64,000 nucleotides of DNA from Flavobacterium sp. 5 (lineage in GTDB: Bacteria; Bacteroidota; Bacteroidia; Flavobacteriales; Flavobacteriaceae): contig NZ_PHUE01000001.1 in assembly GCF_002813295.1 (NCBI RefSeq), positions 1,240,001-1,304,000 of the forward strand, in the 5' to 3' direction. A model generated the notes under the pieces. That model did no database searches, was not told the DNA's origin, and saw only the letters and a list, made by a program, of their open reading frames with translations. Below are positions 5,850-25,202 of this stretch, piece after piece. Each line of letters begins with the position of its first letter. The stretch's first letter is position 1. The position numbers were made by a program, and so were the translations under genes.

Positions 5850-5872
5850 ACATAATATATTAGTCAAATAAT

Positions 5873-7582: not shown

Positions 7583-9622
7583 TTATTTTTTTCCTGCCTT
7601 TAATCGCCAAAGCGTTTCTATAAAAACATCCACGTCCTGAGTGGTATTATAAAATGCTAGAGACGGTCGAACCGAGGTCTCCACTCCCATTCTTCTCAAA
7701 ATAGGCTGTGCACAATGATGCCCAGTTCTCACAGCAATTCCTTCTTTATTTAATGCTTGACCAACCTCATCATTGGTAAAACCCTGTAAATTAAAAGAAA
7801 GAACACTTGCTTTATTAGCAGCCGTCCCGATTAATCGAACTCCAGGAATTTGTTTCAATAAGTTGGTAGCATATTCTAATAAATAATGCTCGTATTGCCC
7901 GATGGCTTCTATTCCGATTTTAGAAACATAATCAATCGCTGCGCCAAGGCCAATGGCATCAGCAATATTACCTGTACCTGCTTCAAAACGATTGGGTGCT
8001 TTGTGGTATTTTATCTCCTCAAAAGTCACATCCTGAATCATATTCCCTCCAGATTGGTAAGGCTCCATTTCATTTAACAAATCTTCTTTACCGTATACAA
8101 CGCCAATTCCTGTAGGTCCAAATAATTTATGACCTGAAAAAACCAACCAATCAGCATTTAGATAACTAACGTCTACTTTCATGTGCGAAACAGATTGTGC
8201 CCCGTCCAAAAGTACTTTGGCTCCAACAGCATGAGCCATTTCAACCATTTGCTTTGCTGGAGTCACTGTTCCTAAAGCATTCGAAACTTGCGTGAAAGCA
8301 ACCAATTTTGTTTTTGAATTTAATAATTTAGCATATTCATCTAACAAAATTTGTCCATCATCATCCACAGGAATTACTCTTAACTTCAAGCCTTTTTTAT
8401 CAGCTAGACGTTTCCAAGGAACAATATTGGCATGATGTTCTAAATTGCTCACTATAATTTCATCACCAGCTGTCAAATTTTGATCTCCCCAGCTTTGAGC
8501 AACCAAATTTATTCCTTCAGTTGCACCGCGAACAAAAATAATTTCGTTTACAGATCGAGCGTTCAAAAATACTTTTACTTTTTCGCGGGCTGCTTCATAC
8601 GCATCAGAAGCTCTTGCTGCCAATTCATGTGCTGCACGATGAATATTCGAATTTTCGTGTTCGTAGAAATAACTAACTCTATCAATTACAGATTGCGGCT
8701 TTTGAGTGGTAGCTGCATTATCAAACCAAATCAATGGTTTGCCGTTTACAGTTTCACTCAAAATTGGAAAATCTTTCTTGATCAAATGAGCGTTGAAATC
8801 CGTTCCTCCAAACCCATTAAATTCGTTATGACTTACTGGAGTAACATCAGCTTTTTTAGAATCAAACCTAAAAGGATTTTCATTCAAAAAATAATACGAA
8901 TTCGGTGTATCAATTATGCCTGGAGTTGTTACCAAAGGTGGAATTCCAAAACTAGAATTAACAGCCTCTAAAGCCGTTTTCAATTCCGCTTCAAAAGAAG
9001 AATGTTCTACTTCAAAAGGTAAATAATTTTGATTTAATGTTGATGATGAATTATCTCCACTGTTCTTTAGATTAACATCATTAAAACCAGTTTGAGGATT
9101 ATCAATATTAACATTGTTTCCGTTTTGAATCCCAGAAGGTGAAGTACCATTTCCTGAAACAGGAGCCGAAGTAAATCCTTCATTCACATCCAAATTAAAA
9201 TCATTTAATTGTGAAATATTTTCAATAATTGGATCCGAAAAAGCATTAGAATATCCTGCAAAACCTGGCGACTTTCCATATTGCCCTACCGAAGATGAAG
9301 CACCGAAACCACCAAATGAGGGCGGAGTTTGCACTGAACCTATCGGACTAGCCGCCACAGCTGGAGTTGCTAATGGTGCAAAACCAGATTGTCCCAACAA
9401 AGTATCATGATTACTAACAGGAAATACCGCATCGACACCACCCAAATTACCCGCAGCAAGCAGCGTTTCGGCAATTTTGGTAGCACGAGGATGTTCACTC
9501 GCATTCGGGCTCAAAGAGATTTCTTTTGGAAATTCGTTGGGCAGCGCACTGAACAGCTCATTGGCTAACTTTTCCAAGTCATCAATGTTAGGTAATCCCG
9601 TATTATTAATATTTGTACTCAT
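7583..9622 (-). CDS. Encapsulated cysteine desulfurase (SufS-like) with long disordered cargo-loading N-terminus
   Basis: 679 residues, against ~410 for an ordinary SufS. Residues 1-~278 are a low-complexity N/S/G/P-rich extension, with a helical start (LPNIDDLEKLANELFSALPN, residues 10-29) and short conserved-looking islands. Residues ~280-679 are a complete group II cysteine desulfurase: PLP lysine Lys499 in FSGHKLFGPTG and persulfide cysteine Cys637 in RTGHHCAQP. The enzyme takes sulfur from cysteine, leaving alanine. In published family 2A encapsulin systems this kind of extension targets the desulfurase into the shell. Its start overlaps the end of the shell gene by 17 bases, so the two are translationally coupled. 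No SufB/C/D/E genes are nearby, which argues against a house-keeping Fe-S role. Confidence 0.93.
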   Translation of the reverse strand: MSTNINNTGLPNIDDLEKLANELFSALPNEFPKEISLSPNASEHPRATKIAETLLAAGNLGGVDAVFPVSNHDTLLGQSGFAPLATPAVAASPIGSVQTPPSFGGFGASSSVGQYGKSPGFAGYSNAFSDPIIENISQLNDFNLDVNEGFTSAPVSGNGTSPSGIQNGNNVNIDNPQTGFNDVNLKNSGDNSSSTLNQNYLPFEVEHSSFEAELKTALEAVNSSFGIPPLVTTPGIIDTPNSYYFLNENPFRFDSKKADVTPVSHNEFNGFGGTDFNAHLIKKDFPILSETVNGKPLIWFDNAATTQKPQSVIDRVSYFYEHENSNIHRAAHELAARASDAYEAAREKVKVFLNARSVNEIIFVRGATEGINLVAQSWGDQNLTAGDEIIVSNLEHHANIVPWKRLADKKGLKLRVIPVDDDGQILLDEYAKLLNSKTKLVAFTQVSNALGTVTPAKQMVEMAHAVGAKVLLDGAQSVSHMKVDVSYLNADWLVFSGHKLFGPTGIGVVYGKEDLLNEMEPYQSGGNMIQDVTFEEIKYHKAPNRFEAGTGNIADAIGLGAAIDYVSKIGIEAIGQYEHYLLEYATNLLKQIPGVRLIGTAANKASVLSFNLQGFTNDEVGQALNKEGIAVRTGHHCAQPILRRMGVETSVRPSLAFYNTTQDVDVFIETLWRLKAGKK

Positions 9623-10523
9623 GATACTTGCCTATTTCTACGTCTTCTAATACCGCAATAGCATCATCTACAGTTACTGCCAATGAGCAATAAAGTGATA
9701 CCAAATAAGAAGCAATGGCTTTTTCATTTATTCCCATAAAACGTACTGATAATCCTGGAGACTGTTCTCCTTGTAAACCTGGCTGAATTAAACCAATTAC
9801 ACCTTGACGGCTTTCTCCTGTACGCAATAAAATGATTTTAGATTTACCATCTTTAATAGGCAGTTTATCAGATGGAATAAGTGGAATTCCTCTCCAAGTC
9901 AAAAATTGAGATCCGAACAAAGAAGTTGTTGGAGGCGGTACACCACGACGAGTACACTCACGGCCAAAAGCTGCGATTGCCAATGGGTGCAGCAAGAAAA
10001 AACCAGGTTCTTTCCAAACTTTTGTCAATAATTCATCCAAATCATCTGGAGTTGGAGCACCTGATCTAGTTTTTATAATTTGCGAAGACGCAACACTATT
10101 TAACAAACCATATTCTTTGTTGTTGATTAATTCGCTTTCCTGGCGCTCTTTAATCGTTTCGATTGCCAAACGCAATTGCTCTGAAATTTGATTGTAAGGT
10201 TTGCTATATAAATCAGAAACACGAGTATGTACATCAACAATCGTTTGAACTGCTGCTAAATTATATTCACGAGGATTATCGATATAATCCACAAATGTAT
10301 TAGGCAAAGTTCGCTCATCTCTTGCTGAACAATCAACTTCGATGTGATTTGCATCTTTTACTTTATTCAAACGATACACCCCAGATTCTACAGGAACCCA
10401 ATGTAAAAGATGGGTAAGCCATCTTGGACTTGTTGCCATTGTAGGTACCGAACGTGTAGCGATTGCTAATTGCCTTGCAGCTACGTCTCCTAACGCAGTT
10501 TGCTGTTTTTTTAATTCTGCCAT
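9606..10523 (-). CDS. Family 2A encapsulin shell protein (SrpI-like, HK97 fold)
   Basis: A 305-residue protein matching family 2A shell proteins in length (~300-310) and in stretches I recognise: an N-arm (LGDVAARQLAIATRS, TMATSPRWLTHLLHWVPVES), LPNTFVDYIDNPREYNL, WKEPGFFLLHPLAIAAFGRE, CTRRGVPPPTTSLFGSQFLT and the C-terminal GLSVRFMGINEKAIASYLVS. These shells self-assemble from HK97-type subunits and load cysteine desulfurase. The cargo gene follows at once with a 17-base overlap, and CysK and CysE precede it. It was probably first annotated as a sulfur-regulated membrane or 'SrpI' protein in related genomes. No cNMP-binding insert, as in family 2B, is present. Confidence 0.94.
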   Translation of the reverse strand: MAELKKQQTALGDVAARQLAIATRSVPTMATSPRWLTHLLHWVPVESGVYRLNKVKDANHIEVDCSARDERTLPNTFVDYIDNPREYNLAAVQTIVDVHTRVSDLYSKPYNQISEQLRLAIETIKERQESELINNKEYGLLNSVASSQIIKTRSGAPTPDDLDELLTKVWKEPGFFLLHPLAIAAFGRECTRRGVPPPTTSLFGSQFLTWRGIPLIPSDKLPIKDGKSKIILLRTGESRQGVIGLIQPGLQGEQSPGLSVRFMGINEKAIASYLVSLYCSLAVTVDDAIAVLEDVEIGKYHEYKY

Positions 10524-10654: not shown

Positions 10655-11575
10655 TTACAAAGCAGTATCAAATAATTCGTCTACGGATAAATATCTTTCT
10701 CCAGTATCATAATTAAAAGTCAGAATTACTGCATCTTTAGGTATTTCATTTAGCTTTTTTGAAACAGCAGCTAAGGCCGCTCCAGTTGAAATTCCAACGA
10801 ATACTCCCTCTTCTTTGGTTATTCTTTTTGAGAAAGCAAAAGCATCCGTTTTTTCAACGGTAATAATTTCATCAATATATTCTCTATTGAAAACTGCTGG
10901 AACAAATCCAGCACCAATCCCTTGAATTGGATGTGGCGCAGGTAAACCACCACTTAAAACAGGTGACAAAGAAGGTTCTACAGCAAACGTTTTTAGTTTA
11001 GGAAAATGCTGTTTCAAAATTTTTGAAACTCCTGTGATATGCCCGCCAGTTCCAACGCCAGTTATCAAGTAATCAATACCCTCCGGAAAATCATTCAAAA
11101 TTTCCTGAGCAGTTGTTCTTTCGTGCACGGCAACATTCGCAGGATTATCAAATTGCAATGGCACGAATGAGTTTGGAGTCGAAGCAGCTAATTCATGTGC
11201 CTTTTCTACGGCACCTGCTGTTCCTTTTTCTCTTGGAGTCAAAACAAATTCTGCTCCATAGGCATTCATAATTTTTCTTCTTTCAATACTCATTGATTCT
11301 GGCATTACCAAAATCACTTTATATCCTTTTACAGCTGCTACTAAAGCCAGTCCAATTCCTGTGTTTCCAGAAGTTGGTTCTATAATAACCGAATCAGGAT
11401 TTAAAAGCCCTTTTACCTCAGCATCTTCAATCATAGCAAGAGCAATTCGGTCTTTGATACTTGATCCTGGGTTTGCTCTTTCCAATTTAATCCAAACCTC
11501 ATGTGTTTTAAACAGCTTATTAAGTCTTACATGAGGTGTATTCCCTATTGTTCCTAAAATACTTTGATATTTCAT
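10655..11575 (-). CDS. cysK: Cysteine synthase (O-acetylserine sulfhydrylase)
   Basis: 306 residues with all hallmarks of the fold-type II PLP family: the PLP lysine in [15 protein letters not shown], the substrate loop [11 protein letters not shown], the phosphate-binding GTGGHITG and GISTGAAL. It makes cysteine from O-acetylserine and sulfide. It follows cysE by 12 bases, giving a two-step cysteine module, and lies upstream of the encapsulin pair, so it would supply the desulfurase substrate. The length fits CysK rather than the CysM or cystathionine synthase types, but a CysM-like preference cannot be excluded. Confidence 0.93.
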
Positions 11576-11587: not shown

Positions 11588-12412
11588 CTAAATGGAGTAA
11601 AAAATAGGTTCAGGAAAAGGATTATTATCCTTTATCTTTATTTCATTTTTGTGATACACCACTGAATTAGAAGGAATAGTGTAAGTAAGCCAAACATTTC
11701 CTCCTATAATAGAATCCCTACCTACTGTTGTTTGTCCGCCAAGAATAGTACTATTGGCATAAATAATTACGTTATTCTCAATTGTTGGATGTCTTTTTAT
11801 AAAAGCTTCGTCTTTTTTTACACTCAAAGCACCGAGGGTAACTCCTTGATAAATTTGAACATTATTTCCAATGATTGCGGTTTCACCAATTACAATTCCT
11901 GTTCCATGGTCTATCGCAAAATCATCCCCTATTTGTGCTCCGGGATGAATTTCTATACTCGTTTTACTATGTGCATATTCAGAAATAGTTCGTGCCAAAA
12001 GTTTCAAATCTTGTTTCCAAATTTGATGTGAAAAACGATAAATTGCTATAGCAAAAAAACCAGGATATGAATACAAAACCTCTTCTAAAGATTTTGCAGC
12101 AGGATCTTTTGCCAAAATAGTTTTCGCATCATTTAATGCCTTTTGATATAAACTAGGTAATTCCTCAAAAAATGTTTGGGTTTGCTGTTGACTTCTACCA
12201 TTTATAGGCGCAAAATCCAATACTAATTCATTAAATTGTACTTCCAATTCCATGAATTTATTCTGAATAATGGCCACATCCCCAAAAGATTTTGATGTAT
12301 TTGAAAACAAAACAGAAAACAATTCATCTATAAATTGATGAATTAATTTCTTTTTTGGCAGAATCAATAAATCCTGATGTTGTTTCGCTATTTCCTGATA
12401 AAAAGATTTCAT
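11588..12412 (-). CDS. cysE: Serine O-acetyltransferase (EpsC-type CysE)
   Basis: 274 residues. The N-terminal half is helical; the C-terminal half (~155-255) is a left-handed beta helix of hexapeptide repeats (EIHPGAQIGDDFAIDHGTG, VIGETAIIGNNVQIYQGVTL). The Asp-His pair in FAIDHG and the His in IKRHPTIENN fit the catalytic residues of serine acetyltransferases. The longer N-terminal region is that of the EpsC-like group. It makes O-acetylserine for CysK, encoded 12 bases downstream. Confidence 0.92.
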   Translation of the reverse strand: MKSFYQEIAKQHQDLLILPKKKLIHQFIDELFSVLFSNTSKSFGDVAIIQNKFMELEVQFNELVLDFAPINGRSQQQTQTFFEELPSLYQKALNDAKTILAKDPAAKSLEEVLYSYPGFFAIAIYRFSHQIWKQDLKLLARTISEYAHSKTSIEIHPGAQIGDDFAIDHGTGIVIGETAIIGNNVQIYQGVTLGALSVKKDEAFIKRHPTIENNVIIYANSTILGGQTTVGRDSIIGGNVWLTYTIPSNSVVYHKNEIKIKDNNPFPEPIFYSI

Positions 12413-12448: not shown

Positions 12449-13711
12449 TTACTTATCAAATAATAAAAAAGCAATTATTAGCGTAATGATGATATTGAAT
12501 AATTGTGCTATTAAAAAAGCATACAATGGCTTTTTACTGTTATTACTGAACAAGTCTTTAAAGTTGGTTTCCAACCCAATACTAGTAAAAGCCAAGGCAA
12601 ACCAAATTCCCTGCAGATTCTTCAAACTGTCTTTAACAACATCTCTTGTTTCAGTTGAAATTAAGAAAGAAAAAACCAAAGAAGCAGCAATGAAACCAAT
12701 TACAAACTTTGGAAAACGTTCCCAAATCACTCTTAAAGTTGGTTTGGCAGCAACAACATCAGAAGATTTATTTTGAGCATACGTCCAATAAACCGATATA
12801 GCAAATGCAGCTAATCCTAATAATACATTTTGTGAAAATTTCACAATTGTACTAATTTTTAAAGCAGTTTCTCCAACCAATGTCCCTGAAGCCACAACTG
12901 CTCCCGAAGTATCAATACTTCCACCCAACCAAGCTCCTGTTACTTCTTCTGGAAAGCCGAAGTGTTTGGCGATAATTGGCATAAAAATCATCATCGGAAC
13001 TGCTGTTACCAATACCATCGAAATTACATATGAAAGTTTCTTCGAATCACCTTTTATAGCTCCAGATGTTGCAATTGCAGCCGAAACTCCGCAAATAGAA
13101 ACAGCGCTTGAAATCATCAAGGCTAATTCCTCATCAACTTTTAGTTTTTTACACACCCAAAAAGCAAAATACCAAACCGATAAAACAACCACTAAAGCCT
13201 GAATTAATCCTAAAGAGCCAGCCTTTAGTATATCTGAAAATATAATGCTACTTCCCAATAAAACCAATCCAATTTTTACAAAAATTTCTGTAGAAAGTGC
13301 TAAACGAAACCATTCTGGGAGTTTGAAAAAATTACCAATAGACAAACCTATGATTAGACTAAAAATAACCGCCTCCAAATTAAACCCTTTGATTGTTGTA
13401 TTTCCAGCAATAATTAATGCTATAACAGTTAATACATACACAACTGGAAAACCTAATAAAAAATTCTTAACCGATTTCCCTACCAAAAAAATGCCTATAA
13501 CTCCAATACCAATAAGGTAAATGAATTGTAAAAAAAGGTCTTTTATATTTTGAATATTGAATACATTATTTATTAAATCCGAACCATTAGACCACTTGAA
13601 GACAGGAACCGAAGGCAAATAGAGAAAAAGAGAAATTCCAATTATAAGAAATCCTAAGAGAACTACTGTCCAATCTTCGTGAATGGTAAATTGCTTTGTT
13701 TTTGATGACAT
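12449..13711 (-). CDS. YeiH-family putative sulfate/anion exporter
   Basis: A 420-residue inner-membrane protein with about ten or eleven hydrophobic segments. Recognisable family motifs are AVIFSLIIGLSIGN, MISSAVSICGVSAAIATSGA and GSIDTSGAVVASGTLVGE. The family (UPF0324, 'putative sulfate exporter') is named from weak evidence; homologs occur beside sulfur genes, including taurine-degradation loci. Position between FGE and cysE supports a role with sulfate, sulfite or another sulfur compound. Direction of transport and substrate are not known. Confidence 0.85.
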   Translation of the reverse strand: MSSKTKQFTIHEDWTVVLLGFLIIGISLFLYLPSVPVFKWSNGSDLINNVFNIQNIKDLFLQFIYLIGIGVIGIFLVGKSVKNFLLGFPVVYVLTVIALIIAGNTTIKGFNLEAVIFSLIIGLSIGNFFKLPEWFRLALSTEIFVKIGLVLLGSSIIFSDILKAGSLGLIQALVVVLSVWYFAFWVCKKLKVDEELALMISSAVSICGVSAAIATSGAIKGDSKKLSYVISMVLVTAVPMMIFMPIIAKHFGFPEEVTGAWLGGSIDTSGAVVASGTLVGETALKISTIVKFSQNVLLGLAAFAISVYWTYAQNKSSDVVAAKPTLRVIWERFPKFVIGFIAASLVFSFLISTETRDVVKDSLKNLQGIWFALAFTSIGLETNFKDLFSNNSKKPLYAFLIAQLFNIIITLIIAFLLFDK

Positions 13712-13741: not shown

Positions 13742-14821
13742 TTATTTATCCTTCACACAACGAAATCCCAAGTGATTACAAGCACTTGTAGTTTCTCCTT
13801 TGCCTCGGCTTCCAGCCACATATCGAATACAATATTGATCACTGCATAAATAAGAACCCCCTCTTTGAACGTGTTTTTCTACTCCTGGTTCTTCAGGATC
13901 GTTACTCGTTGAAGGTCCTTGCGGATTATTTTTAGCACTGCTTTTATAATAATCATCTCTGTATAAATCGTTACACCATTCCCAAACATTTCCTTCTAAA
14001 TCATAAATTCCAAATGGATTTTTTGGGAAAGATTTTACTGGAGCTACACCTGCAAAACCATCTTCGGCAGTATTTTGATTTGGAAAAGTACCTTGAAAAA
14101 TATTAGCTACCCATTTCCCTTTTGGTTTTAATTCGGTACCCCAATAATATTTGGTTGATGGCCTTTGCGCTCTGGCTGCGAATTCCCATTCAGCCTCTGT
14201 TGGAAGTCGCTTTCCAGCCCATTCTGCATATGCTTTTGCATCTAGATAACTAATTTGAACTACAGGATTGTTTTCGAGTCCAACAATACTACTTTTTGGC
14301 CCAGCAGGATGTTTCCAATTGGCACCTGGAACATATTGCCACCATTGTTGCATGTTTTCCAAAGACACTTTACCTGTTGGTGGCACAAAAACTGCCGAAC
14401 CTGGCACTAATTTATCTACAGGAACACCAGGATAATCATCTGGATTTAGAGGTCTTTCGGCAATTGTTACATATTTAGTAGCTTTTACAAAAGCAGCAAA
14501 TTGAGCATTGGTCACCTCGTGTTCATCAATCCAATACCCTTTCACACTTACTTTATGAATGGGTTTTGCATCTGGATAATTATTGGTACCCATATTAAAT
14601 TCCCCTCCTGTAATCCAAACCATTTCATTGGTTAAACCCGTAGTATTCTCTTTAGAACTTGTATTGAGAGATTGCATTAACAATGCTTTTTTAGATGTAT
14701 TTGCTTTGCACATAGCTTGGCAGTTAGTTGCTACTACTATAGCATTACCACCCTGGGCATAAATTGAAAACGAACCTGTAAAGCCAATTACAACAATTAA
14801 ATTGTATATATATTTTTTCAT
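13742..14821 (-). CDS. Formylglycine-generating enzyme (sulfatase activator)
   Basis: Start chosen at the ATG in 14819-14821 (MKKYIYNLIVVIGFTGSFSI), which gives a clean signal peptide; an in-frame ATG five codons upstream is possible. The rest is a SUMF1/FGE-sulfatase domain: MVWITGGEFNMGTNN, GYWIDEHEVTNAQFAAFV, RLPTEAEWEFAARA, GNVWEWCNDLY and RGGSYLCSDQYCIRY. The two cysteines four residues apart (C-S-D-Q-Y-C) match the catalytic copper-binding Cys pair of human FGE, so this is an active enzyme rather than a GldK-like relative. FGE oxidises the CxPxR cysteine of sulfatases to formylglycine. All three sulfatases of the cluster are of the Cys type. It has its own promoter and leader. Confidence 0.92.
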   Translation of the reverse strand: MKKYIYNLIVVIGFTGSFSIYAQGGNAIVVATNCQAMCKANTSKKALLMQSLNTSSKENTTGLTNEMVWITGGEFNMGTNNYPDAKPIHKVSVKGYWIDEHEVTNAQFAAFVKATKYVTIAERPLNPDDYPGVPVDKLVPGSAVFVPPTGKVSLENMQQWWQYVPGANWKHPAGPKSSIVGLENNPVVQISYLDAKAYAEWAGKRLPTEAEWEFAARAQRPSTKYYWGTELKPKGKWVANIFQGTFPNQNTAEDGFAGVAPVKSFPKNPFGIYDLEGNVWEWCNDLYRDDYYKSSAKNNPQGPSTSNDPEEPGVEKHVQRGGSYLCSDQYCIRYVAGSRGKGETTSACNHLGFRCVKDK

Positions 14822-14891
14822 GATGTGTAAACTCAAAATAATCTGGATTTTATTCTATTAAAATTTTAGTAAGTAAAAAATCAAGAACAAC

Positions 14892-15076: not shown

Positions 15077-16696
15077 TCATAAATCAACAAAATATTTTTG
15101 TGCTCCAAAATCAAATTCATAATAGGTCAAATTAGGCCATAAAGGTTTAATCAATCCTTTTTCCCAATTGTGTAAAGCTGTTTGTAATTCTTTTACTTTT
15201 TCAGGATTCTTTTGAGCCAAATCAGTTGTTTCTGATTTATCATTTGCCAAATTGTAAAGCCATTGTTCGTGTGTTTTCCCACTAATGATTAATTTCCAAT
15301 CGCCACTTCGAATCGCTTTGGCATCACCAGAACGCCAATATAAATTTTGATGTGCCACTTGCTTATTATTAACTACACTAACTAAATCAACACCATCGTA
15401 AACTCTGTCTATTGGTATTTTTGAATGAATAGCAGCCGCAATCGTACTGAAAATATCCAAAGAAATAACTGGTTTTTCATAAACTGTATGTGGTTTAATC
15501 TTTCCTTTCCAAGACAGAGCGAACGGCACATTAATTCCACCTTCAAAATGCGAAAACTTTCCTCCTTTTAAAGGCGCATTGGTCGTAGCGAATGTGTAAT
15601 CAGCTCCACCATTATCACTTGCAAAAACGATTAGTGTATTTTCTTCTAGACCTTCTTTTCTTACCTTAGCAACAATTCGGCCAACAGCATCATCCAGAGC
15701 ACTAATCATTGCAAAATAGACCCGTTTGTTTTCGTCTTTTACATTTGGAAAACGGTCATAATATTTTTTGCGAACTTGAAAAGGCGTGTGTGGCGCATTA
15801 AACGGAACATAAAGCAAAAACGGTTTTGTTCTGTTTTTATCGATAAAAACTTCTGCTTCTTCAGCAAACTTCTCCGTCAAATAAGCTTTCTCTTCTATAA
15901 TGGTATTGTCACGACGAATCTTACCAATTCCTACACGTCCATTTCCCCAAATCGTTTTATCGGTAAAATCTTTATGATGGTGATTGATAATATCTGGATT
16001 ATCATCTTCGGGTGTGTAAAGTGAAAATGCCTGATAAAATCCATAATGATAATCGAAACCTCTATCCAAAGGAAAAAAACCTTTGTTATGTCCCAAATGC
16101 CATTTTCCAATGATAGCTGTACTGTAGCCTTGCTTTTTGGCTAAATCAGCAAAAGTAATCTCCGATTTTGGCAAACCTTGAGTAGCAATTGAAGCCTCAT
16201 TTGGATACTCAATTTTTGGGTTTAATTTCCAATTATTGGTATTAATCAAATATTTGAAAGCATAATATTCTAAATTGTTTTTTGGATAGCGATCACCAGG
16301 TTGAAATTCATGACCAAATCGTTCTTGATAACGGCCAGTCAGCAGACCAGCTCTGGATGGCGAACAAATAGAAGCAGAAACATAACCATTGGTAAATGTC
16401 ACTCCCGAAGCAGCTAAGGAATCGATTTGAGGCGTTGGTGTCGATTTTCCGCCATATAAAGAAATGTCATATTTCCCTAAATCATCAGCCAATAGAATAA
16501 TAATATTGGTTTTCTTCCCTGCAACAGATCCCGAGTCTTTGGATGCTAAAAATTCCTTTTTGCCTTCGACTAATTTTTTATCCGTTTCTACTAATTTACC
16601 ATCAGTATTGATAGGCCAGAATAAAAACAAACCAATTAGCACTAGCACGATAAGTATCGAAAAAACAAATTTTCTATTTATTTTGAATGATGCCAT
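15077..16696 (-). CDS. Membrane-anchored or exported Cys-type sulfatase
   Basis: 539 residues. Residues 10-29 (VFSILIVLVLIGLFLFWPIN) form an N-terminal membrane anchor or uncleaved signal. The sulfatase domain starts at NIIILLADDLGKYDISLYGG; the formylglycine signature is CSPSRAGLLTG with Cys111, so FGE processing is required. Other family landmarks are GKWHLGHNKGFFPLDRGFDY and FASDNGGAD. It hydrolyses sulfate esters, probably in the periplasm. It differs from the two arylsulfatases at 19813 and 23295 and so may have a different substrate. It lies between the rhodanese-thioredoxin gene (12 bases upstream) and the FGE promoter. Confidence 0.92.
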   Translation of the reverse strand: MASFKINRKFVFSILIVLVLIGLFLFWPINTDGKLVETDKKLVEGKKEFLASKDSGSVAGKKTNIIILLADDLGKYDISLYGGKSTPTPQIDSLAASGVTFTNGYVSASICSPSRAGLLTGRYQERFGHEFQPGDRYPKNNLEYYAFKYLINTNNWKLNPKIEYPNEASIATQGLPKSEITFADLAKKQGYSTAIIGKWHLGHNKGFFPLDRGFDYHYGFYQAFSLYTPEDDNPDIINHHHKDFTDKTIWGNGRVGIGKIRRDNTIIEEKAYLTEKFAEEAEVFIDKNRTKPFLLYVPFNAPHTPFQVRKKYYDRFPNVKDENKRVYFAMISALDDAVGRIVAKVRKEGLEENTLIVFASDNGGADYTFATTNAPLKGGKFSHFEGGINVPFALSWKGKIKPHTVYEKPVISLDIFSTIAAAIHSKIPIDRVYDGVDLVSVVNNKQVAHQNLYWRSGDAKAIRSGDWKLIISGKTHEQWLYNLANDKSETTDLAQKNPEKVKELQTALHNWEKGLIKPLWPNLTYYEFDFGAQKYFVDL

Positions 16697-16708: not shown

Positions 16709-17416
16709 TTAATGAGCCAAAGCCACATCGACGTCTTTTTTCAAATCACCCAAACCATCTTTTTTAAAAATGAATTTACCATTTTGATATAAAATCAAAG
16801 TTGGAAAAACCTTTACCGTTTTTAAATCTGCTATGACTTGTGGATTATCTTCTAAATCAATTTCTACGATTTTCAAATTGGTTCCATATTGACCTTTGAT
16901 TGTTTCCAAAACTGGTTTCACTTTTTTGCAAGCTCCACAATATTGAGATCCAATATCTACCAAAACAACTTTATTATCAGCAATGATTTTATTGTATTCT
17001 GCAAGCGATAATTTGCTTTTTGAATTGGAATAAAAGGGCTTTCCTCCTCCTATCCAAGCTGCAATTCCACCTTCCAAAACATGTGCTTCAGAAAAACCAT
17101 TTTTAACTAATTCATCTCCTAATAAACTACTTCTGTATGCTGCAATTGAATAAATAAACACAGGTTTTGATTTATCTAACCGAGCTACATTTTCGGCATA
17201 ATTTTTTGATTCCAAATTAAAATTAACTGCACCTTCGACATGATTTATAGCAAATTCTTCAGGACTTCGAGCATCAATTATCTGCGGCTTTTGTTGTTCC
17301 TTAACCTTTGCATAAAAGGGCTCGATTTTTAAGGTATTTTGATTTTGGGAAAAACCAGCAATTGTAAATAAAAATACAATTGCTGTGATACTATTTTTAA
17401 GATTGAACTGGCTCAT
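16709..17416 (-). CDS. Exported rhodanese-like (Cys to Ser) / thioredoxin fusion
   Basis: Start set at the ATG in 17414-17416 (MSQFNLKNSITAIVFLFTIA) because this gives a signal peptide; it overlaps the upstream desaturase pseudogene by 20 bases. 235 residues. Residues ~28-130 are a rhodanese domain (IIDARSPEEFAINHVEGAVN, then VLEGGIAAW), but the active-site loop reads YSIAAYRSS, with Ser90 where active rhodaneses have Cys. Residues ~135-235 are a thioredoxin domain with an intact CGAC motif (Cys160-Cys163). The product is probably a periplasmic thiol or redox protein rather than a sulfurtransferase. Its place among sulfatases is consistent with a sulfur role. Confidence 0.85.
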   Translation of the reverse strand: MSQFNLKNSITAIVFLFTIAGFSQNQNTLKIEPFYAKVKEQQKPQIIDARSPEEFAINHVEGAVNFNLESKNYAENVARLDKSKPVFIYSIAAYRSSLLGDELVKNGFSEAHVLEGGIAAWIGGGKPFYSNSKSKLSLAEYNKIIADNKVVLVDIGSQYCGACKKVKPVLETIKGQYGTNLKIVEIDLEDNPQVIADLKTVKVFPTLILYQNGKFIFKKDGLGDLKKDVDVALAH

Positions 17417-18465
17417 ATATATTTGTATTTGTTGATGAAACTTCTTGTTTTTGTGAAATTGGTATAGCACGAACACCTTCTGCTAAAGCACTTCCTTCTT
17501 TTTTGGATTTGAATATTGGCCAAAGAAATTGTGCGTACCATTCTTCTTGTTTATATGATCTTATACCGTATGATTTTGGAAATTTCCGAGTGATTAAAGC
17601 TGTTCCAAAAAACACATCCCAAAGAAAAAACATGTTCCCAAAATTGCCTTTAAAATGACCTATTCCATCCCCGCTAGTATCGGCATGATGCGCGTGATGT
17701 GTTGCTGGAGTAGAGATAACGCGCTCTAATACCCATGCAATTGGTTGTAATAATCTGTATTTGTAAAATAGTTTGTCCCAAGCTACACTTGAATGTGCTC
17801 CTATAATGATTATACTTTTTAGAACTGCTACAAACAAAGCGGGTAATCCTAAACCTAGATACACCAAAGTAGCTGTTAAATAAATTTGAGAGAAGAATAT
17901 CGTGTAAATAAAATTTTGCCTATTCAACATCGCTACTCCCATATATGGAGCAGAATGATGTGTTCTGTGAAAACGCCACAAAAATGGCACTTGATGGTGC
18001 AATCGATGGTACCAATATTGAGTCAAATCATCGGCAACTGCAATCAAGAAAAAACCTCCCCAAAAAGGAACCCAAGAAAGTGTATTAGCCAAATTTGGAA
18101 TTAAATATGGTAAAATTTTTAAACTAAAAAAAGCAAATACAGGTGGCAAAAGCAATTTTGGAGCTAAAAAACAAACAATATCTAATTTGCGTTCTTCACC
18201 TGTCCATTCGTCATCGTATAAACCTGCAACAAATTCAATAAATCCTAAAACCAACATATAAAACAACTAACCCCCAAGTTTGTAAGTTGGCAAAAACAGG
18301 TTTTGCAAATTCTAAAAAGGATGGTAATGTAAGATGTGATTCTGTTACAATACCATTATTCAATTTAAAATAAAGGTAAATTGCCAAGACTGGTAGACTG
18401 TATATCAGCAAACTGATGCTTATGTCTCTTTTTATTTTTTTTTGTGTACTTTTTGCTAATGCCAT
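17397..18465 (-). pseudogene. Frameshifted sterol desaturase/fatty acid hydroxylase-like gene
   Basis: The start lies at 18465 (MALAKSTQKKIKRDISIS) and the frame runs into a stop at 18235. The rest of the protein continues in another frame from ~18266 down to 17397. Aligned with the intact neighbour at 18538-19614, the break is one extra base near 18259, in the segment corresponding to TWGLIAFMLVLG. Downstream all three histidine boxes are preserved (WYHRLHH, RFHRTHHSAPYMG, THHAHH) and the C-terminus YEPVQS is the same as in the neighbour. It is therefore a recent mutation, a sequencing error, or less likely a programmed frameshift. Confidence 0.85.
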
Positions 18466-18537: not shown

Positions 18538-19614
18538 TTACGATTGAACTGGCTCGTAAATATTTTGATTTGTTGGAATTGTTTGATTTGTTGAAACAGT
18601 CTCTCTCTTTTGAGAAATTGGTGTAGATAGAACTCCATCTGCTAATGGACTTCCTTCAATTTTAGATTTGAATATTGGCCAAAGGAATTGTGCATACCAC
18701 TCTTCACTTTTGTATGTTTTAGTTCCGTATGATTCAGGGAATTTTCGAGTAATTAAACCCGTTCCGAAAGTCATATCCCACAAGAAAAACATATTTCCAA
18801 AATTACCTTTGAAATGTCCAACACCATCTCCACTGGTATCAGCATGATGCGCGTGATGCGTCGCTGGAGTAGAAATTAAACGTTCCAAAACCCAAGCAAT
18901 TGGATGCAAAACTTTGTATTTGTAAAATGGTTTGTCCCAAGCAAGACTTGAATGTGCACCTAAAGTGATGATACTTTTTACAACCAAAACAAATAATGCG
19001 GGTAATCCTAAACCTAAATAAGTCAATGTAGCTGTCAAATAAATTTGAGAGAAAAACACCGTATACAAGAAGTTCTGTCTTGAAGCCATTGCCATTCCCA
19101 TGTATGGAGCCGAGTGATGTGTTCTATGAAAACGCCATAAAAACGGTACTTGATGGTGCAAACGATGGTACCAGTATTGTGTTAAATCATCGGCTACAGC
19201 AATCAGGAAAAAACCTCCCCAAAAAGGAACCCATGAAAGTGTATTAGCCAAATTTGGAATTACATAGGGTAAAACTGTTAAGCTAAAAAAAGTAATTACA
19301 GGAGGTAACAACAATTTTGGAGCTAGAAAACAGATGATATCTATTTTGCGTTCACGTCCTGTCCATTTTTCATCATATAAACCTGCAGTAAATTCAACTA
19401 CTCCTAAAACGAGCATAAAAGCAATTAACCCCCAGGTCCTAATATTTTCGAATGCAGGTTTTGCAAACTCCAAAAATGATGGTAACACAATATGTGATTC
19501 AGTAACAATACCATTATTTAGCTTAAAATAAAGGTAAATCGCCAATACTGGCAAGCTGTAAATTAAAAGACTGATACTTAAGTCTCTTTTTAGTTTTGTT
19601 GTATCTAATGCCAT
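18538..19614 (-). CDS. Sterol desaturase/fatty acid hydroxylase superfamily membrane protein
   Basis: A 358-residue integral membrane protein with several hydrophobic segments (SLLIYSLPVLAIYLYFKL, PKLLLPPVITFFSLTVLP, FWGGFFLIAVADDL). It carries the di-iron histidine boxes of the superfamily: WYHRLHH, FHRTHHSAPYMG and THHAHHADTSG. Members hydroxylate or desaturate lipids, or cleave ether lipids. The substrate here is unknown. It is a tandem paralog of the frameshifted gene downstream and follows a 39-residue membrane protein by 6 bases. An oxygenase acting on the organic part of sulfated lipids is conceivable but is inference. Confidence 0.85.
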   Translation of the reverse strand: MALDTTKLKRDLSISLLIYSLPVLAIYLYFKLNNGIVTESHIVLPSFLEFAKPAFENIRTWGLIAFMLVLGVVEFTAGLYDEKWTGRERKIDIICFLAPKLLLPPVITFFSLTVLPYVIPNLANTLSWVPFWGGFFLIAVADDLTQYWYHRLHHQVPFLWRFHRTHHSAPYMGMAMASRQNFLYTVFFSQIYLTATLTYLGLGLPALFVLVVKSIITLGAHSSLAWDKPFYKYKVLHPIAWVLERLISTPATHHAHHADTSGDGVGHFKGNFGNMFFLWDMTFGTGLITRKFPESYGTKTYKSEEWYAQFLWPIFKSKIEGSPLADGVLSTPISQKRETVSTNQTIPTNQNIYEPVQS

Positions 19615-19812: not shown

Positions 19813-21732
19813 TTAATGAGAATTTCCAGCTCCTTTTGTTGCTTGTTTAATCAATTCTTGAAGGTTTTGGTTTTTATCTCCACTAGGATTATGAATTCTT
19901 CTAGCTAATACATCTTGCCAATCGATTAATGGATACACATTATTCTCTTTGGCTTGCTCATCAAACAATTTTTTAAGTTCGGCTAATTTTTCAGGATACT
20001 TAGCTGCCAAGTTATTACGCTCATTAAAGTCTTCATTCAAGTTGTACAATTCCCAAACATCATTATCAAAATTACTTGGTGTTGGAGCTTGGTTTTTACC
20101 TGCAGCTTTTAGCAACGTAAATGGATCTGGATGTGCAGCACCTGCTTTCCAACCATCTTTGTAAATAGCTCTATTTCCGAAAATGTAATAGTATTGTATT
20201 TTGTGTAATGATTCAGCTTTAGCATTGTTTAAAGAAGTATATAAAGACGAACCTTGAATAATATCCTGTTTAATTCCTTTAATGTTTTCAGGAGCTTTGA
20301 TACCCGCAATTTCAAGAGTCGTTGGAAGAATATCCGTTACGTGGCTATATTGATTTCTGATTCCACCTTTTTCTTTAATACCTTTTGGATAAAAAATGAT
20401 CAAAGGATTACGAGTTCCTCCTTCTGATTGTGCATCTTGCTTCCAATTTTTAAATGGTGAATTAGTAGCTTGCGCCCATCCTAAAGGATAATTTGTATTT
20501 AAACCTTTAGCTGTTCCAATTTCTCCGATATTCGCCAAATTTGACTCAAGATTTTTTTCATCAGATGTTCCTTGAGCAAAAATATTTTGGCTAATTGTTC
20601 CTTGTGTGGTACCTTCTTTACTTGCTCCATTATCACCAATTGCAACAAAAATCAAAGTGTTATCCAATTGATTGCTTTCTTTTAAATAATTAACAACTCT
20701 TCCAATTTCGTGATCCGTATACGTAAGATATCCAGCATACACTTCCATGAATCTTGCATAGACTTTCTTTTGATCCGGAGTTAGCTTTTTCCATTCCGTG
20801 ATAATCGGATTACGTTCAGGTAATACCGCATTAGCAGGAATTACACCCAATTTCTTTTGACTTGCCAATACTTTTTCGCGGTATACATCCCAACCTTCAT
20901 CAAATTTTCCTTTATAAGCATCACTCCAAGACGCTTCTACTTGGTGCGGTGCATGAGCGGCTCCTGGTGCATAGTATAAAAAGAATGGTTTACCCGGAGC
21001 TGATTTTTGTTGTCTTTGAATGTAACTAATAGCTTTATCAGTAATCAATTCATTTAGATGGCGCCCGTCAGGTTTTATATGCGCCTGATCTTCTACCAAA
21101 TCAGGATTGTACTGATCGGTTTGTGATCCTAAGAAACCATAAAAATGATCAAATCCTTTACCTGTTGGCCATCTGTCAAACGGTCCTGCATCAGTAGCAT
21201 CTTCATCAGGAGTTACACCATATTTACCTACTGCAAAAGTATTGTATCCATTATCTCTTAAGATCTCAGCAATCGTTCCTTTATCCGATGGAATTCTTCC
21301 ATCCCAACCCGGGAAACCTGCCGAAAGAATAGTATGTGAAAATCCACTAACATGCACTCTTCCTGAATTTCGGCCTGTCAATAATGCTGCACGAGTTGGT
21401 GCGCAAATTGCTGTAGTATGGAAATTAGTGTAGCGTAAACCGTTATTTGCTAAAGCATCAAAAGTGGGTGTTTCTATTAAACCTCCAAAAGCACTAGATG
21501 CTCCAAATCCTACGTCATCAAGTAGAATCCATACCACGTTAGGTGCTCCTGTTGGAGCTTTTACTGGCTCAGGCCAATATTCTTTAGAATCAGCTAGCGT
21601 TTTACCAATAACTCCTTTGAAATCGGCATCTGGTTTGTTTTGGGCGATACCAAATTGAGCAACAAGTAAAGCTGTAAGCAAAAGTCCCCTTTGAGGAGTT
21701 TTGAGTTTTGAGTTGAATTTAAAATTTTTCAT
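19813..21732 (-). CDS. Exported arylsulfatase (Cys type)
   Basis: 639 residues. An N-terminal signal peptide covers ~11-31 (KTPQRGLLLTALLVAQFGIA, then Q). Sulfatase landmarks are NVVWILLDDVGFGASSAFGG and the formylglycine motif AICAPTRAALLTG with Cys110, GKYGVTPDEDATDAGPFDRW, HAPHQVEASW and IGDNGASKEGT. The long form with this pattern resembles the Pseudomonas/Mycobacterium arylsulfatase group. It needs FGE, encoded at 13742. It is a close paralog of the sulfatase at 23295. A promoter-like region with two TCTATAGA palindromes precedes it and a terminator follows. Confidence 0.93.
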   Translation of the reverse strand: MKNFKFNSKLKTPQRGLLLTALLVAQFGIAQNKPDADFKGVIGKTLADSKEYWPEPVKAPTGAPNVVWILLDDVGFGASSAFGGLIETPTFDALANNGLRYTNFHTTAICAPTRAALLTGRNSGRVHVSGFSHTILSAGFPGWDGRIPSDKGTIAEILRDNGYNTFAVGKYGVTPDEDATDAGPFDRWPTGKGFDHFYGFLGSQTDQYNPDLVEDQAHIKPDGRHLNELITDKAISYIQRQQKSAPGKPFFLYYAPGAAHAPHQVEASWSDAYKGKFDEGWDVYREKVLASQKKLGVIPANAVLPERNPIITEWKKLTPDQKKVYARFMEVYAGYLTYTDHEIGRVVNYLKESNQLDNTLIFVAIGDNGASKEGTTQGTISQNIFAQGTSDEKNLESNLANIGEIGTAKGLNTNYPLGWAQATNSPFKNWKQDAQSEGGTRNPLIIFYPKGIKEKGGIRNQYSHVTDILPTTLEIAGIKAPENIKGIKQDIIQGSSLYTSLNNAKAESLHKIQYYYIFGNRAIYKDGWKAGAAHPDPFTLLKAAGKNQAPTPSNFDNDVWELYNLNEDFNERNNLAAKYPEKLAELKKLFDEQAKENNVYPLIDWQDVLARRIHNPSGDKNQNLQELIKQATKGAGNSH

Positions 21733-22066: not shown

Positions 22067-22660
22067 CTATTTTATTTTTTTAATAAACGGAAGACTTTCT
22101 ACCTTCAAATTGTTTCTGAGGTTATCTGATGGCTGATACAATCGTATTACCAAAGACACTTTTTGAGTTCCAGTTATTGGGAGCCAATTTTTCTCTTTTT
22201 TAGAACTTGATAAGTTAATTTTATAAGAAGTACTGTCTTTTTCATACTTTACATCTTCAAAATTATAGCTATACTTTTCAATTGGATTTTTTATCAAAAA
22301 ACCATCCTGATCATAAGCTGTAATACTCCAATATCTAGCATCTAATTTTTTTCCGTTTATAACGTAATCCGATTTTGAATCAATGGGGTTACCATCACTA
22401 TCGGTATTTGTATTGAGATAAATCACTTCCTTTTTTGTCAAAGGATAAGTAGCATAAACTGCTATTTGTGCAATTGACAATAAATCGTCATTGTTTACAT
22501 CTTTATCTTTGCCTATAGTTTTCCAGTTCCCTATACTTTCCTGTGAACTATTTTTCCAAGTACTAATACTGTAAAAAGCTGTTCCAATCCCCCCTAATAT
22601 CGCTACAATTACTAATAGAGACAAGATGATACGGTGTTGTATTTTTTTATTTAAAGCCAT
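22067..22660 (-). CDS. DUF1214-type exported protein
   Basis: 197 residues with an N-terminal membrane anchor or signal (IILSLLVIVAILGGIGTAFY). The C-terminal region carries the DUF1214 pattern: DARYWSITAYDQDGFLIKNP, YSYN, KNWLPI and SLVIRLYQPS. Proteins with DUF1254 and DUF1214 are widespread and often next to hydrolases or transporters, but their activity is unknown. Here the two domains are separate, adjacent genes. Confidence 0.75.
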   Translation of the reverse strand: MALNKKIQHRIILSLLVIVAILGGIGTAFYSISTWKNSSQESIGNWKTIGKDKDVNNDDLLSIAQIAVYATYPLTKKEVIYLNTNTDSDGNPIDSKSDYVINGKKLDARYWSITAYDQDGFLIKNPIEKYSYNFEDVKYEKDSTSYKINLSSSKKEKNWLPITGTQKVSLVIRLYQPSDNLRNNLKVESLPFIKKIK

Positions 22661-22683: not shown

Positions 22684-23235
22684 TTATTCAGCTAGTTTTT
22701 CTACTTTAACACTGTGTTGTAAATCAACAAGAGTTTTAAAGGAATATGATTTTGATACTAAATAGCGAAACAATACTAGTCCAGTTTTAGTAGGACTATA
22801 AATTATTTTCTCTTTTGGAATATCTTTCAATAAAGCAGAATTAGTTCCCTCATTAGCCAAATAATATTCAAAATTACCATCGACCTGATCATCATTTGCA
22901 ACAAAAAAATTAGTCGTATTGGCTTGATAAGTGGCAATAGACCAATATGTAGAATCAGGAACTTTTCCAGAAATTTTTAAGACACTATCTTTAATATCGT
23001 AATTGATAGAAGAATATAAAAAATCTGGATTAGGCAAAGGAACAACCCTATTATTTTCAGGAGTTGGTTTTTCTGCAAATCGTAAAGTATTAACGCTCGC
23101 ACTTACTTTTGAAGCAACTTTGTTTTGTACATAATAAGGCGTAAACCAAATCGTAAGATAGTAAAAAACTACAGCTAACAGGATAGCTCCTACCCCGTAG
23201 GCACCTATTCTAATTTTATTTTTTGTTGTTGACAT
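22684..23235 (-). CDS. DUF1254-type exported protein
   Basis: 183 residues with a membrane anchor at ~12-33 (AYGVGAILLAVVFYYLTIWF). The pattern PNPDFLYSSINYDIKDS, then DSTYWSIATYQANTTNFFVA, fits DUF1254. It is short compared with the ~450-residue fused DUF1254-DUF1214 proteins and is followed 24 bases later by the DUF1214 gene, so the pair is a split version. Function unknown. Confidence 0.7.
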   Translation of the reverse strand: MSTTKNKIRIGAYGVGAILLAVVFYYLTIWFTPYYVQNKVASKVSASVNTLRFAEKPTPENNRVVPLPNPDFLYSSINYDIKDSVLKISGKVPDSTYWSIATYQANTTNFFVANDDQVDGNFEYYLANEGTNSALLKDIPKEKIIYSPTKTGLVLFRYLVSKSYSFKTLVDLQHSVKVEKLAE

Positions 23236-23294: not shown

Positions 23295-25202
23295 TTACTT
23301 GTTTGCTTTAGTCAATAATTCCTGAGTAGACTTCCCTTCCGTAGCTGGTGTTTTATGTATTTTTCTTTGGTAAACATCTGACCAGTCTATTAATGGATAC
23401 AGGTTATTTTTCTTGGCTTGCTCGTCAAATAGTTTTTTAAGTTCAGCTAGTTTTTCAGGATATTTCTTAGCCAAATCTTTTCTCTCATTGAAATCTTCAT
23501 TGATATTATATAACTCCCAAACATCTTTATCAAAATCACCATTTAAAACACCTGCTTTTGTTTTATCATTCAAAGCCTCTTTAACTTCAATTGAGTTTGG
23601 ATGATGCTCAGCTTCAGCTTTCCAACCATCATTGTAAATAGATCTGGATCCAAAAATGTAGTAATGCTGAATTTTATGTGACGATACTACTTTGGCATCA
23701 TTTAAAGAATTATAAAACGAATATCCTTGAATGCTATCTTGCTTAATTTCTCTGATAGATTCCGGAGCTTTTACTCCAAGAATATCTAGAGTCGTAGGTA
23801 AAATATCAATTACATGACTGTATTGAGTTCTAATCCCGCCTTTCTCTTTAATTCCTTTTGGATAATAAACAATCAAAGGATTGTGTGTACCTCCTTCTGC
23901 GTTAGCATCTTGTTTCCATTGTTTGAATGGAGTATTTGTTGCTTGTGCCCAACCCAAAGGATAATTGGCATACGTTTGAGGGGTTCCAATTTCACCAATT
24001 CGGTTCAAATTATTTTGGAATACCAGTTCTTCTGTTACTCCTGTTACGTATGTTTGTCTGTCTACATCTCCTTGTGTTGTTCCTTCTTTACTAGCCCCAT
24101 TATCACCTATTAAAACAAAAACAACTGTATTATCCAATTGATTTGATTCTTTTAAATAATTAACCAATCTTCCTATTTCATGATCGGTATAGGTCAAATA
24201 TCCTGCATAGACTTCCATAAATTTTGAATAGACTTTCTTTTGATCAGGAGTTAATTTTTTCCAATCTCCAATAAGCGGATTACGTTCAGGCAATACAGCA
24301 TTGGCTGGAACTACACCCAATTTTTTTTGATTAGCGAGTGTTTTTTCGCGATAAGCATCCCAGCCATCGTCAAATTTTCCTTTATAAGCATCGCTCCAAG
24401 AAGCAGCAACCTGATGAGGTGCATGAACAGCTGCTGGAGAATAGTATAAAAAGAATGGTTTTTCTGGTGCCACCTTATGTTGTCTGGTAATATAACTAAT
24501 AGCTTTATCCGTAATTTGTTCACTAAGATGTCTTCCGTCTGGAGTTACATGTGCCTGATCTTCTATCAAATCTGGTTTATACTGATCAGTCGCTGACCCC
24601 AGGAATCCGAAGAAATGCTCAAATCCTTTACCTGTTGGCCATCTGTCAAAAGGTCCAGCATCTGTCGCGTCTTCATCGGGAGTCACACCATATTTACCTA
24701 CGCCAAAAGTATTGTATCCTTTGTCACGTAAAATCTCAGCAATCGTACCATTTTTTGAAGGTAATCTTCCATCCCAACCTGGAAACCCTGCAGACATTAT
24801 CGTATGTGAGAATCCACCAACATGGACCTTATGAGAGTTACTTCCTGTCAATAAAGCCGAACGTGTAGGAGCACAAATCGCCGTAGTATGAAAATTAGTA
24901 TATCTCAATCCATTGTTGGCCAGACTCTCTAATACTGGTGTTTCGATTAAGCCTCCAAAAGCACTTGAAGCTCCATACCCTACATCATCTAAAATAATCC
25001 AAACCACGTTTGGAGCACCTTTGGGAGCAGTAACTGGTTCTGGCCAATATTCTTTTGATTCAGCCAATGTTTTACCAATAACGCCTTTAAAATCAGCATC
25101 CGGTTTATTTTGGGCAAAGCCAAATTGTGCAACAAGTAAGGCTGTAATCAAAAGCCCTTTTTGTGGGCTTTTGATGATACTATTATATTTTATATCTTCC
25201 AT
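23295..25202 (-). CDS. Exported arylsulfatase (Cys type), paralog of 19813-21732
   Basis: 635 residues with a signal peptide (KSPQKGLLITALLVAQFGFA), NVVWIILDDVGYGASSAFGG and formylglycine motif AICAPTRSALLTG (Cys110). GKYGVTPDEDATDAGPFDRW, HAPHQVAASW and IGDNGASKEGTTQG are shared with the 19813 paralog; differences cluster in the region after ~380 and near the C-terminus, possibly reflecting substrate choice. It directly follows susD (27 bases) and so belongs to the SusCD transcript. Confidence 0.93.
   Translation of the reverse strand: MEDIKYNSIIKSPQKGLLITALLVAQFGFAQNKPDADFKGVIGKTLAESKEYWPEPVTAPKGAPNVVWIILDDVGYGASSAFGGLIETPVLESLANNGLRYTNFHTTAICAPTRSALLTGSNSHKVHVGGFSHTIMSAGFPGWDGRLPSKNGTIAEILRDKGYNTFGVGKYGVTPDEDATDAGPFDRWPTGKGFEHFFGFLGSATDQYKPDLIEDQAHVTPDGRHLSEQITDKAISYITRQHKVAPEKPFFLYYSPAAVHAPHQVAASWSDAYKGKFDDGWDAYREKTLANQKKLGVVPANAVLPERNPLIGDWKKLTPDQKKVYSKFMEVYAGYLTYTDHEIGRLVNYLKESNQLDNTVVFVLIGDNGASKEGTTQGDVDRQTYVTGVTEELVFQNNLNRIGEIGTPQTYANYPLGWAQATNTPFKQWKQDANAEGGTHNPLIVYYPKGIKEKGGIRTQYSHVIDILPTTLDILGVKAPESIREIKQDSIQGYSFYNSLNDAKVVSSHKIQHYYIFGSRSIYNDGWKAEAEHHPNSIEVKEALNDKTKAGVLNGDFDKDVWELYNINEDFNERKDLAKKYPEKLAELKKLFDEQAKKNNLYPLIDWSDVYQRKIHKTPATEGKSTQELLTKANK

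Follow-up and report, generated by a model that had tools for sequence, protein, structure and literature searches.

A family 2A encapsulin and its cysteine desulfurase at the end of a sulfatase-bearing gene cluster in Flavobacterium sp. 5

We analysed a stretch of 64,000 nt from Flavobacterium sp. 5 (GCF_002813295.1, NZ_PHUE01000001.1, positions 1,240,001-1,304,000 of the forward strand), called the window below. It encodes a family 2A encapsulin shell and, in an overlapping open reading frame (ORF), a cysteine desulfurase (CyD) predicted to be its cargo. The less expected feature is that this pair closes a gene cluster apparently built for scavenging sulfur from sulfate esters. We consider it likely that shell and cargo act at the end of this sulfur-acquisition locus as a sulfur store fed by cysteine. 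Features are listed in Table 1, and the Pfam scan of the window covered 40 of its 44 ORFs of at least 150 residues.

A previous reading of this DNA, made from the sequence alone, had described two ORFs of 305 and 679 residues with a 17-base overlap. It had taken the first product for a SrpI-type shell and proposed a search against encapsulin hidden Markov models. We recover the same ORFs, and the search places the shorter protein above the curated cut-off of the family 2A model (NF041162, encap_f2a, 518.6 bits for a cut-off of 380), in agreement with its Pfam match (PF19307, E 1.1e-105). Residues 11-303 align to model positions 1-295 as a single stretch, i.e. as a full-length 2A type. The shell also passes the 2B model (418 bits, cut-off 400), although Pfam found in it no cNMP-binding domain (PF00027), the insertion that separates 2B from 2A. 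Its top PDB matches, both near full-length, are the cargo-loaded 2A shell of Acinetobacter baumannii (8t6r, 499 bits) and Synechococcus SrpI (6x8m), and its identity to the 2A proteins of these two bacteria is 72.6-72.9%. The AlphaFold model of the shell has low confidence (mean predicted local distance difference test, pLDDT, of 50.4; shallow alignment of 30 similar sequences), and for this reason we assigned the HK97 fold from homology. The earlier reading had named the lack of this fold in a prediction as a refutation, a weak test with such a model. Searched with this low-confidence model, Foldseek, whose scoring also draws on sequence, gave seven matches with E <= 0.001, all of them to family 2 encapsulins, and below these some weaker matches to phage capsids. 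The best matches have TM-scores of about 0.44, and identity to the solved shells within the alignments is 61% and 57%. The predicted HK97 fold is supported by this identity to solved shells. The pore residues R192, G194, and P196 and the cargo-site residues F262 and Y273 are present; Nichols et al. (PMC8049743) put G194 and P196 at the pore and F262 and Y273 beside the cargo density. Profile matches, homologues of solved structure, and the conserved order of the genes thus agree that the protein, as judged from its sequence, is a family 2A encapsulin shell. As a member of this family, it would form a shell of 60 subunits and about 25 nm.

The 679-residue protein scores 894.4 bits with NF041166 (f2_encap_cargo1, cut-off 800). 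The match spans residues 6-674, so that the N-terminal extension is covered by the cargo family model. Its catalytic domain, which begins around residues 276-281, is of the SufS type (TIGR01979, 555.9 bits, cut-off 475.1). We compared the pair with relative loci (L013-L092, the best 80 of 523, from named genomes, picked by the shell and not by the extension) and aligned 84 cargos, i.e. that of the window, 45 from Flavobacterium, 33 from other Bacteroidota, and 5 from plasmid loci of other phyla. In 79 of the 80 loci, the shell gene is followed by an ORF for a desulfurase; the remaining locus (L086) is cut short by the end of its contig, 545 bases past the shell. The two ORFs of the window share 9606-9622, an overlap of 17 bp that recurs in 41 of the 45 Flavobacterium loci; of the other four, three overlap by 20 bp and one by 14 bp. 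Some overlap occurs in 75 of the 78 loci measured, one more locus with a cut cargo being excluded. The score and the linkage bear out the known 2A architecture that the sequence-only reading had recognised in this arrangement. The reading was also right that Lys499 and Cys637 are intact, as both are identical in all 83 other aligned cargos (45/45 in Flavobacterium, 38/38 elsewhere). By analogy with SufS, they would be the pyridoxal phosphate lysine and the persulfide cysteine. The genome encodes a separate SufS at a locus with SufB/C/D-type genes (L118), hence CyD is an additional desulfurase. A housekeeping SufS has sufB/C/D neighbours and no N-terminal extension; CyD has the extension and not the neighbours. 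These results identify the protein as the predicted dedicated cysteine desulfurase cargo of a family 2A encapsulin.

The N-terminal extension has about 275 residues, close to the 278 first proposed. It had been singled out as long, but it is not exceptionally so: extensions range from 99 to 357 residues over the 84 cargos. Among the 46 of Flavobacterium, window included, 41 have 226-243 residues and five, including the window, 266-279. The residues P/S/G/N/Q/T make up 50% of it. According to Nichols et al. (PMC8049743), most cargos of this kind carry the motifs LARLANEFFS and AASPYYFLDG, and both have counterparts in the window cargo, the second one reading NSYYFLNE. The G/S/N/P-rich islands noticed earlier are real and include two copies of a motif, G.G.S[PS]S. 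The suggestion that shell targeting may therefore differ stands in part: the island motif is an extra element, yet both Synechococcus-type motifs are kept and the islands are common to other Bacteroidota. In the AlphaFold model of the cargo, pLDDT is below 50 across the extension except at residues 11-26 and 216, which is weak proof of disorder because the folded shell, with its shallow alignment, scored low too. Charge-hydropathy speaks against disorder, as the extension falls just within the range of folded proteins (H of 0.464 for a boundary of 0.438). A PDB search with the extension alone matched two BurrH repeat-protein sequences (E 7.6e-08 and 2.2e-07), in which no stretch passed singly, and one sequence at E 1.5; we rejected these as spurious.

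The motif G.G.S[PS]S occurs 78 times in 53 of the 84 N-domains (shuffled mean 0.31, maximum 3). It is present in the window, in 22 of the 45 other Flavobacterium cargos, in 30 of the 33 from other Bacteroidota, and in none of the 5 plasmid loci. The strict form is accordingly absent from 31 N-domains (23, 3, and 5, respectively). Where present, it has one to four copies, with at least two in 18 proteins, spaced mostly by 39-52 residues (19 and 92 also occur). Among the 120 best protein matches of the window N-domain, 89 have the motif and 31 lack it; it is found in none of the 117 delimited N-domains among the 120 best matches of a Variovorax N-domain. Both sets were selected by likeness to their query, which biases the window set towards the motif. 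The named members of the Variovorax-like set are beta- or unspecified proteobacteria, and 104 of the 117 have at least two YYF-type motifs. Hence, the cargo-loading region seems to combine a shared frame, made of the helix motif and YYFL, with inserts that differ between lineages. A similar sequence, GGPTGLGTSAAR, is found in a putative terpene cyclase adjoining a 2B-type shell match (L102), a single protein named by its N[DE]xxSxxxE pattern and its position rather than by a profile. It is the motif that Andreas and Giessen list for terpene cyclase cargo (PMC8346489). The resemblance of the Bacteroidota motif to the one of 2B terpene cyclase cargos is no more than suggestive.

The cluster comprises sixteen co-directional genes from 29854 down to 7583 (~22 kb), with the shell-cargo pair at its end. 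Their order is SusC, SusD, sulfatase, DUF1254, DUF1214, sulfatase, two fatty-acid hydroxylases, rhodanese-thioredoxin, sulfatase, FGE-like, YeiH-like, serine O-acetyltransferase (SAT), CysK, shell, and cargo. Ten of the 15 intergenic gaps are shorter than 60 bp or are overlaps, and five are of 131-334 bp. PF00884 has 12 places in the genome (4.97 Mb), three of them within the cluster. The sulfatases, the FGE-like protein, and the rhodanese-thioredoxin have, by eye, signal- or anchor-like N-termini. The Pfam matches of the sixteen genes include no glycoside hydrolase or lyase, the enzymes that stand beside SusC/SusD in a polysaccharide utilisation locus.

Table 1. Features of the shell-cargo pair and of the gene cluster (window positions)
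Feature	Position	Strand	Basis
Encapsulin cargo cysteine desulfurase (CyD), 679 aa	7583..9622	-	NF041166; SufS-type domain from ~residue 276
Cys637 codon	7712..7714	-	residue conserved in alignment
Lys499 codon	8126..8128	-	residue conserved in alignment
N-terminal extension, residues 1-275, putative cargo-loading region	8798..9622	-	composition, pLDDT, homologous extension in relatives
Motif around SYYFL (242-246), residues 239-248	8879..8908	-	counterpart of published AASPYYFLDG
Repeat motif copy 2, PVSGNGTSPS, residues 154-163	9134..9163	-	G.G.S[PS]S match
Repeat motif copy 1, PPSFGGFGASSS, residues 100-111	9290..9325	-	G.G.S[PS]S match
Motif LEKLANELFS, residues 16-25	9548..9577	-	counterpart of published LARLANEFFS
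Family 2A encapsulin shell (SrpI-like, HK97 fold by homology), 305 aa	9606..10523	-	PF19307, NF041162, PDB 8t6r/6x8m
Cysteine synthase A (CysK)	10655..11575	-	TIGR01139 399.7 bits, cut-off 350.95
Serine O-acetyltransferase (EpsC/CysE type, SAT)	11588..12412	-	NF041874 152.3 bits, cut-off 150; TIGR01172 171.2, below 210.65
YeiH-type putative sulfate exporter family protein	12449..13711	-	PF03601; TIGR00698 85.8 bits, below 232.6
FGE-like (sulfatase-modifying-factor domain) protein, signal-like N-terminus by eye	13742..14836	-	PF03781 1.4e-76
Sulfatase with CSPSR motif	15077..16696	-	PF00884 1.8e-59
Rhodanese + thioredoxin protein, signal-like N-terminus from inner ATG, by eye	16709..17476	-	Pfam
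Two fatty-acid-hydroxylase family ORFs	17397..18266, 18538..19614	-	Pfam
Sulfatase with CAPTR motif	19813..21732	-	PF00884 8.1e-63
DUF1214 protein	22067..22660	-	Pfam
DUF1254 protein	22684..23235	-	Pfam
Sulfatase with CAPTR motif	23295..25202	-	PF00884 1.8e-61
SusD-like protein	25230..26705	-	Pfam
SusC-like TonB-dependent receptor	26723..29854	-	Pfam

In the function that we propose, the SusC/SusD pair would carry sulfate esters across the outer membrane, and exported sulfatases, matured by the FGE-like protein, would free sulfate outside the cytoplasm. The sulfate would be turned into sulfide by the cell's own reductive pathway, for which genes of the PAPS_reduct and NIR_SIR families occur elsewhere in the genome, and SAT and CysK would fix the sulfide as cysteine. 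Cysteine may then enter the shell by the fivefold pore (G194, P196), a role that comes from work on the Synechococcus shell (PMC8049743). There the encapsulated desulfurase, retained through an N-terminal region that is probably disordered, would strip the sulfur, to be kept as persulfide or elemental sulfur for lean times. According to the same paper, the Synechococcus shell is induced under sulfate starvation and turnover is about sevenfold higher when the enzyme is encapsulated. Two later papers refer, by citation, to encapsulin cysteine desulfurases in sulfur storage and to storage as an encapsulin role (PMC12407261, PMC12140327). From the genes we infer the substrate and the direction of flow, and likewise that the shell assembles, takes up its cargo, and stores sulfur. 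More tentatively, SAT-CysK-shell-CyD might be a swappable sulfur-storage cassette, acquired and lost by flavobacteria at the end of the sulfate-ester locus, with the cargo docked by several copies of [S/P][V/F]xGxGxSPS about 40 residues apart, although we would not bet on it. Possibly this motif has a relative in GPTGLGT(SAAR), the motif of terpene cyclase cargos in family 2B; if so, docking would follow a single principle throughout family 2.

The link to the sulfatase locus was searched in other genomes. The shell was found in 12 of 101 Flavobacterium genomes. Of the 101, 22 have a close orthologue of SusD (identity of at least 74%), among them 11 of the 12 shell-bearing genomes, a significant association when kinship is ignored (Fisher p 4.7e-8). 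The two genes are at most 20 kb apart in nine of the eleven, 31 kb apart in one, and on different contigs in the last one. The 20 kb upstream of the shell hold a close SusC-SusD pair in 10 of 12 encapsulin-bearing Flavobacterium genomes and a YeiH gene in all 12; in the single genome of another family (G189), they hold a distant cysK alone. In the relative loci, some of whose flanks were cut by contig ends, a sulfatase-like ORF was found within ~8 kb of the shell in 34 of the 45 Flavobacterium loci. In L086, a metagenome-assembled genome of Mucilaginibacter, a distant sulfatase (27% identity), a rhodanese-thioredoxin (36%), and an FGE-like protein (46%) stand just before the shell (1-5674), i.e. 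neighbours of the same kind outside Flavobacterium. In a sample of the phylum, the shell model matched in 62 of 395 genomes: seven matches are a single stretch over positions 1-295, the 2A type, and 55 are all in one other Bacteroidota family (f18), most of them split in the way that 2B shells would produce. One of these 55 was scanned with Pfam and NCBIfam (L116) and revealed a cNMP-bearing 2B shell adjoining CysK, SAT, and a desulfurase. There the order is cysK-SAT-2B shell-desulfurase (4237-10101), and the cargo N-domain has roughly 340-350 residues.

Comparisons of close relatives show the block as present or absent between common neighbours. Neither this variation nor the sulfatase/SusCD setting figured in the sequence-only reading. 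G083 and G042 have common genes on both sides, with SAT-cysK-shell-cargo between them in G083 and absent in G042: ~5.4 kb of the former corresponds to ~160 bp of the latter, and flank DNA identity is 88% and 84%. G304 and G091 differ by cysK-shell-cargo plus one small neighbour (f28), and the stretch absent from G075 relative to G052 is longer than the block. In G030, the FGE gene adjoins a leucine-rich repeat gene, and the window has YeiH-SAT-cysK-shell-cargo between those two; G054 retains cysK alone of the block. A locus tree of 23 genomes, 12 of them shell-bearing, requires 9 changes in shell presence, for a mean of 8.1 and a minimum of 4 with shuffled labels, so that presence is clustered no better than by chance. 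The cargo tree (10 genomes) shares 2 of 7 splits with it, and support is low in places. This pattern fits repeated loss or transfer, gain and loss being inseparable on these trees.

Several observations weigh against a sulfate-ester-fed store. Two of the three sulfatases pass the cut-off of SGSH_C, the sugar-sulfamidase C-terminal domain, so the substrates may be sulfated sugars and the gain may be in carbon rather than in sulfur. A YeiH-type protein, annotated as a sulfate exporter, is an odd partner, and the exported-looking rhodanese-thioredoxin would be an unlikely cytosolic sulfur acceptor. The association with sulfatases is mostly a Flavobacterium trait, since of the 35 loci from other Bacteroidota only 3 have a sulfatase-like ORF near the shell. 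Within the fetched flanks, 29 of the 45 Flavobacterium and 11 of the 35 other loci have SAT, and 27 and 3 have cysK, so that neither gene is required. The sulfatase locus is also found in related genomes that lack the encapsulin, hence the two are separable. Finally, Synechococcus knockouts of shell and cargo had no growth defect in the data reported by Nichols et al., under sulfur starvation or not (PMC8049743).

Among other explanations, the one to be taken most seriously, while still unlikely, keeps the compartment and gives up storage: the shell would confine the desulfurase to spare cysteine or channel the sulfur to a particular acceptor. Both ideas have been raised in print for family 2A (PMC8346489, PMC8049743), and rhodaneses, of which the cluster has one, are enriched in 2A desulfurase operons (PMC8346489). 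The signal-like N-terminus of this rhodanese argues against it as the acceptor, and the later papers that cite storage favour the alternative. That the enzyme could be an ordinary SufS serving iron-sulfur clusters, by chance beside a capsid-like gene, would account for its SufS-type domain. This is very improbable given the other SufS with its SufB/C/D-type genes, the conserved extension that fits the cargo model, and a linkage to the shell interrupted by nothing other than a contig end. Less credible still, to the point of being negligible, is a prophage capsid remnant: the shell has weak similarity to phage capsids (~28% identity over 66% of the protein), but its resemblance to the Synechococcus and A. 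baumannii shells is far closer, and the 40 scanned window ORFs include no other phage structural gene. We thus favour the cysteine-fed sulfur store, and we hold the full chain to be likely rather than near-certain because it covers both storage and sulfate-ester use, because the alternatives together retain a minor share of the probability, and because of the two SGSH_C matches.

Scans for regulatory signals gave little. A Bacteroidetes-type promoter pattern had 72 matches with at most one mismatch where 58 were expected, a number reached by 7 of 100 shuffles. Two of its four exact matches in the window are intergenic, one preceding the FGE gene (15013-15042) and one preceding SusC (30283-30312), both on the minus strand; they are weak and may be due to chance. 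A sigma-70 scan gave fewer sites than in shuffles (18 vs 32), and Rfam had no match in window positions 1-35000. Elsewhere in the window, 39229-43971 encode gldN, gldM, gldL, and an FGE-domain gene, presumably GldK by its position, for gliding and type IX secretion, which is ordinary for flavobacteria. A 451-residue protein with no Pfam match is encoded at 2204-3559 on the same strand, downstream of a LuxR-type regulator gene.

Operons of this type are already in print for Bacteroidetes, and many database proteins are already named family 2A encapsulin cargo. In the open-licence PMC literature, we found no relevant paper by title on a link between encapsulins and sulfatases, nothing on an encapsulin desulfurase in Flavobacterium, and the 2021 survey alone for Bacteroidetes encapsulins with cysteine and sulfate; outside that literature, the link to sulfatases and the repeat motif may already have been described. 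The cluster matters because the natural role of the system is poorly grounded, as the Synechococcus knockouts illustrate, and its genes suggest when the compartment should count, namely during growth on sulfate esters under sulfur limitation. G083 and G042, close relatives with and without the four-gene block, are a ready comparison for this. The repeat motif provides a concrete target for mapping the binding of 2A cargo to its shell, for which Nichols et al. could not build an atomic model (PMC8049743).

The closest characterised system is SrpI-CyD of Synechococcus elongatus PCC 7942 (PMC8049743, PDB 6x8m), whose shell is 72.6% identical over 98% of the query. Its plasmid likewise groups cysK, SAT, shell, and CyD. 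In Synechococcus the shell and cargo genes are separated instead of overlapping, the order of SAT and cysK is reversed, and the cargo N-domain lacks G.G.S[PS]S. The 10.9 kb of plasmid examined have no sulfatase or SusCD gene, unlike the window. In Acinetobacter, the source of the best PDB match, a related record (L105) has neighbours named glpE and cysE and a cargo N-domain with two YYFL-type motifs and, by eye, no G.G.S[PS]S. Records with the Acinetobacter 2A shell (L105; H2-H4, H41, H42) include some filed as a phage, of 328 and 378 kb, and others filed as plasmids of several megabases; these look like mislabelled pieces of bacterial chromosomes. Andreas and Giessen catalogued 111 Bacteroidetes 2A cysteine desulfurase operons in 2021, with serine O-acetyltransferases and rhodaneses as the most enriched accessories (PMC8346489), and the shell and cargo of the window are of the same type. 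The passages of that survey consulted here make no mention of sulfatases, SusC/SusD, or presence and absence of the block. The family 2B desulfurase encapsulin of L116 has cysK, SAT, shell, and desulfurase together as in the window, and differs by the cNMP-binding domain of its shell.

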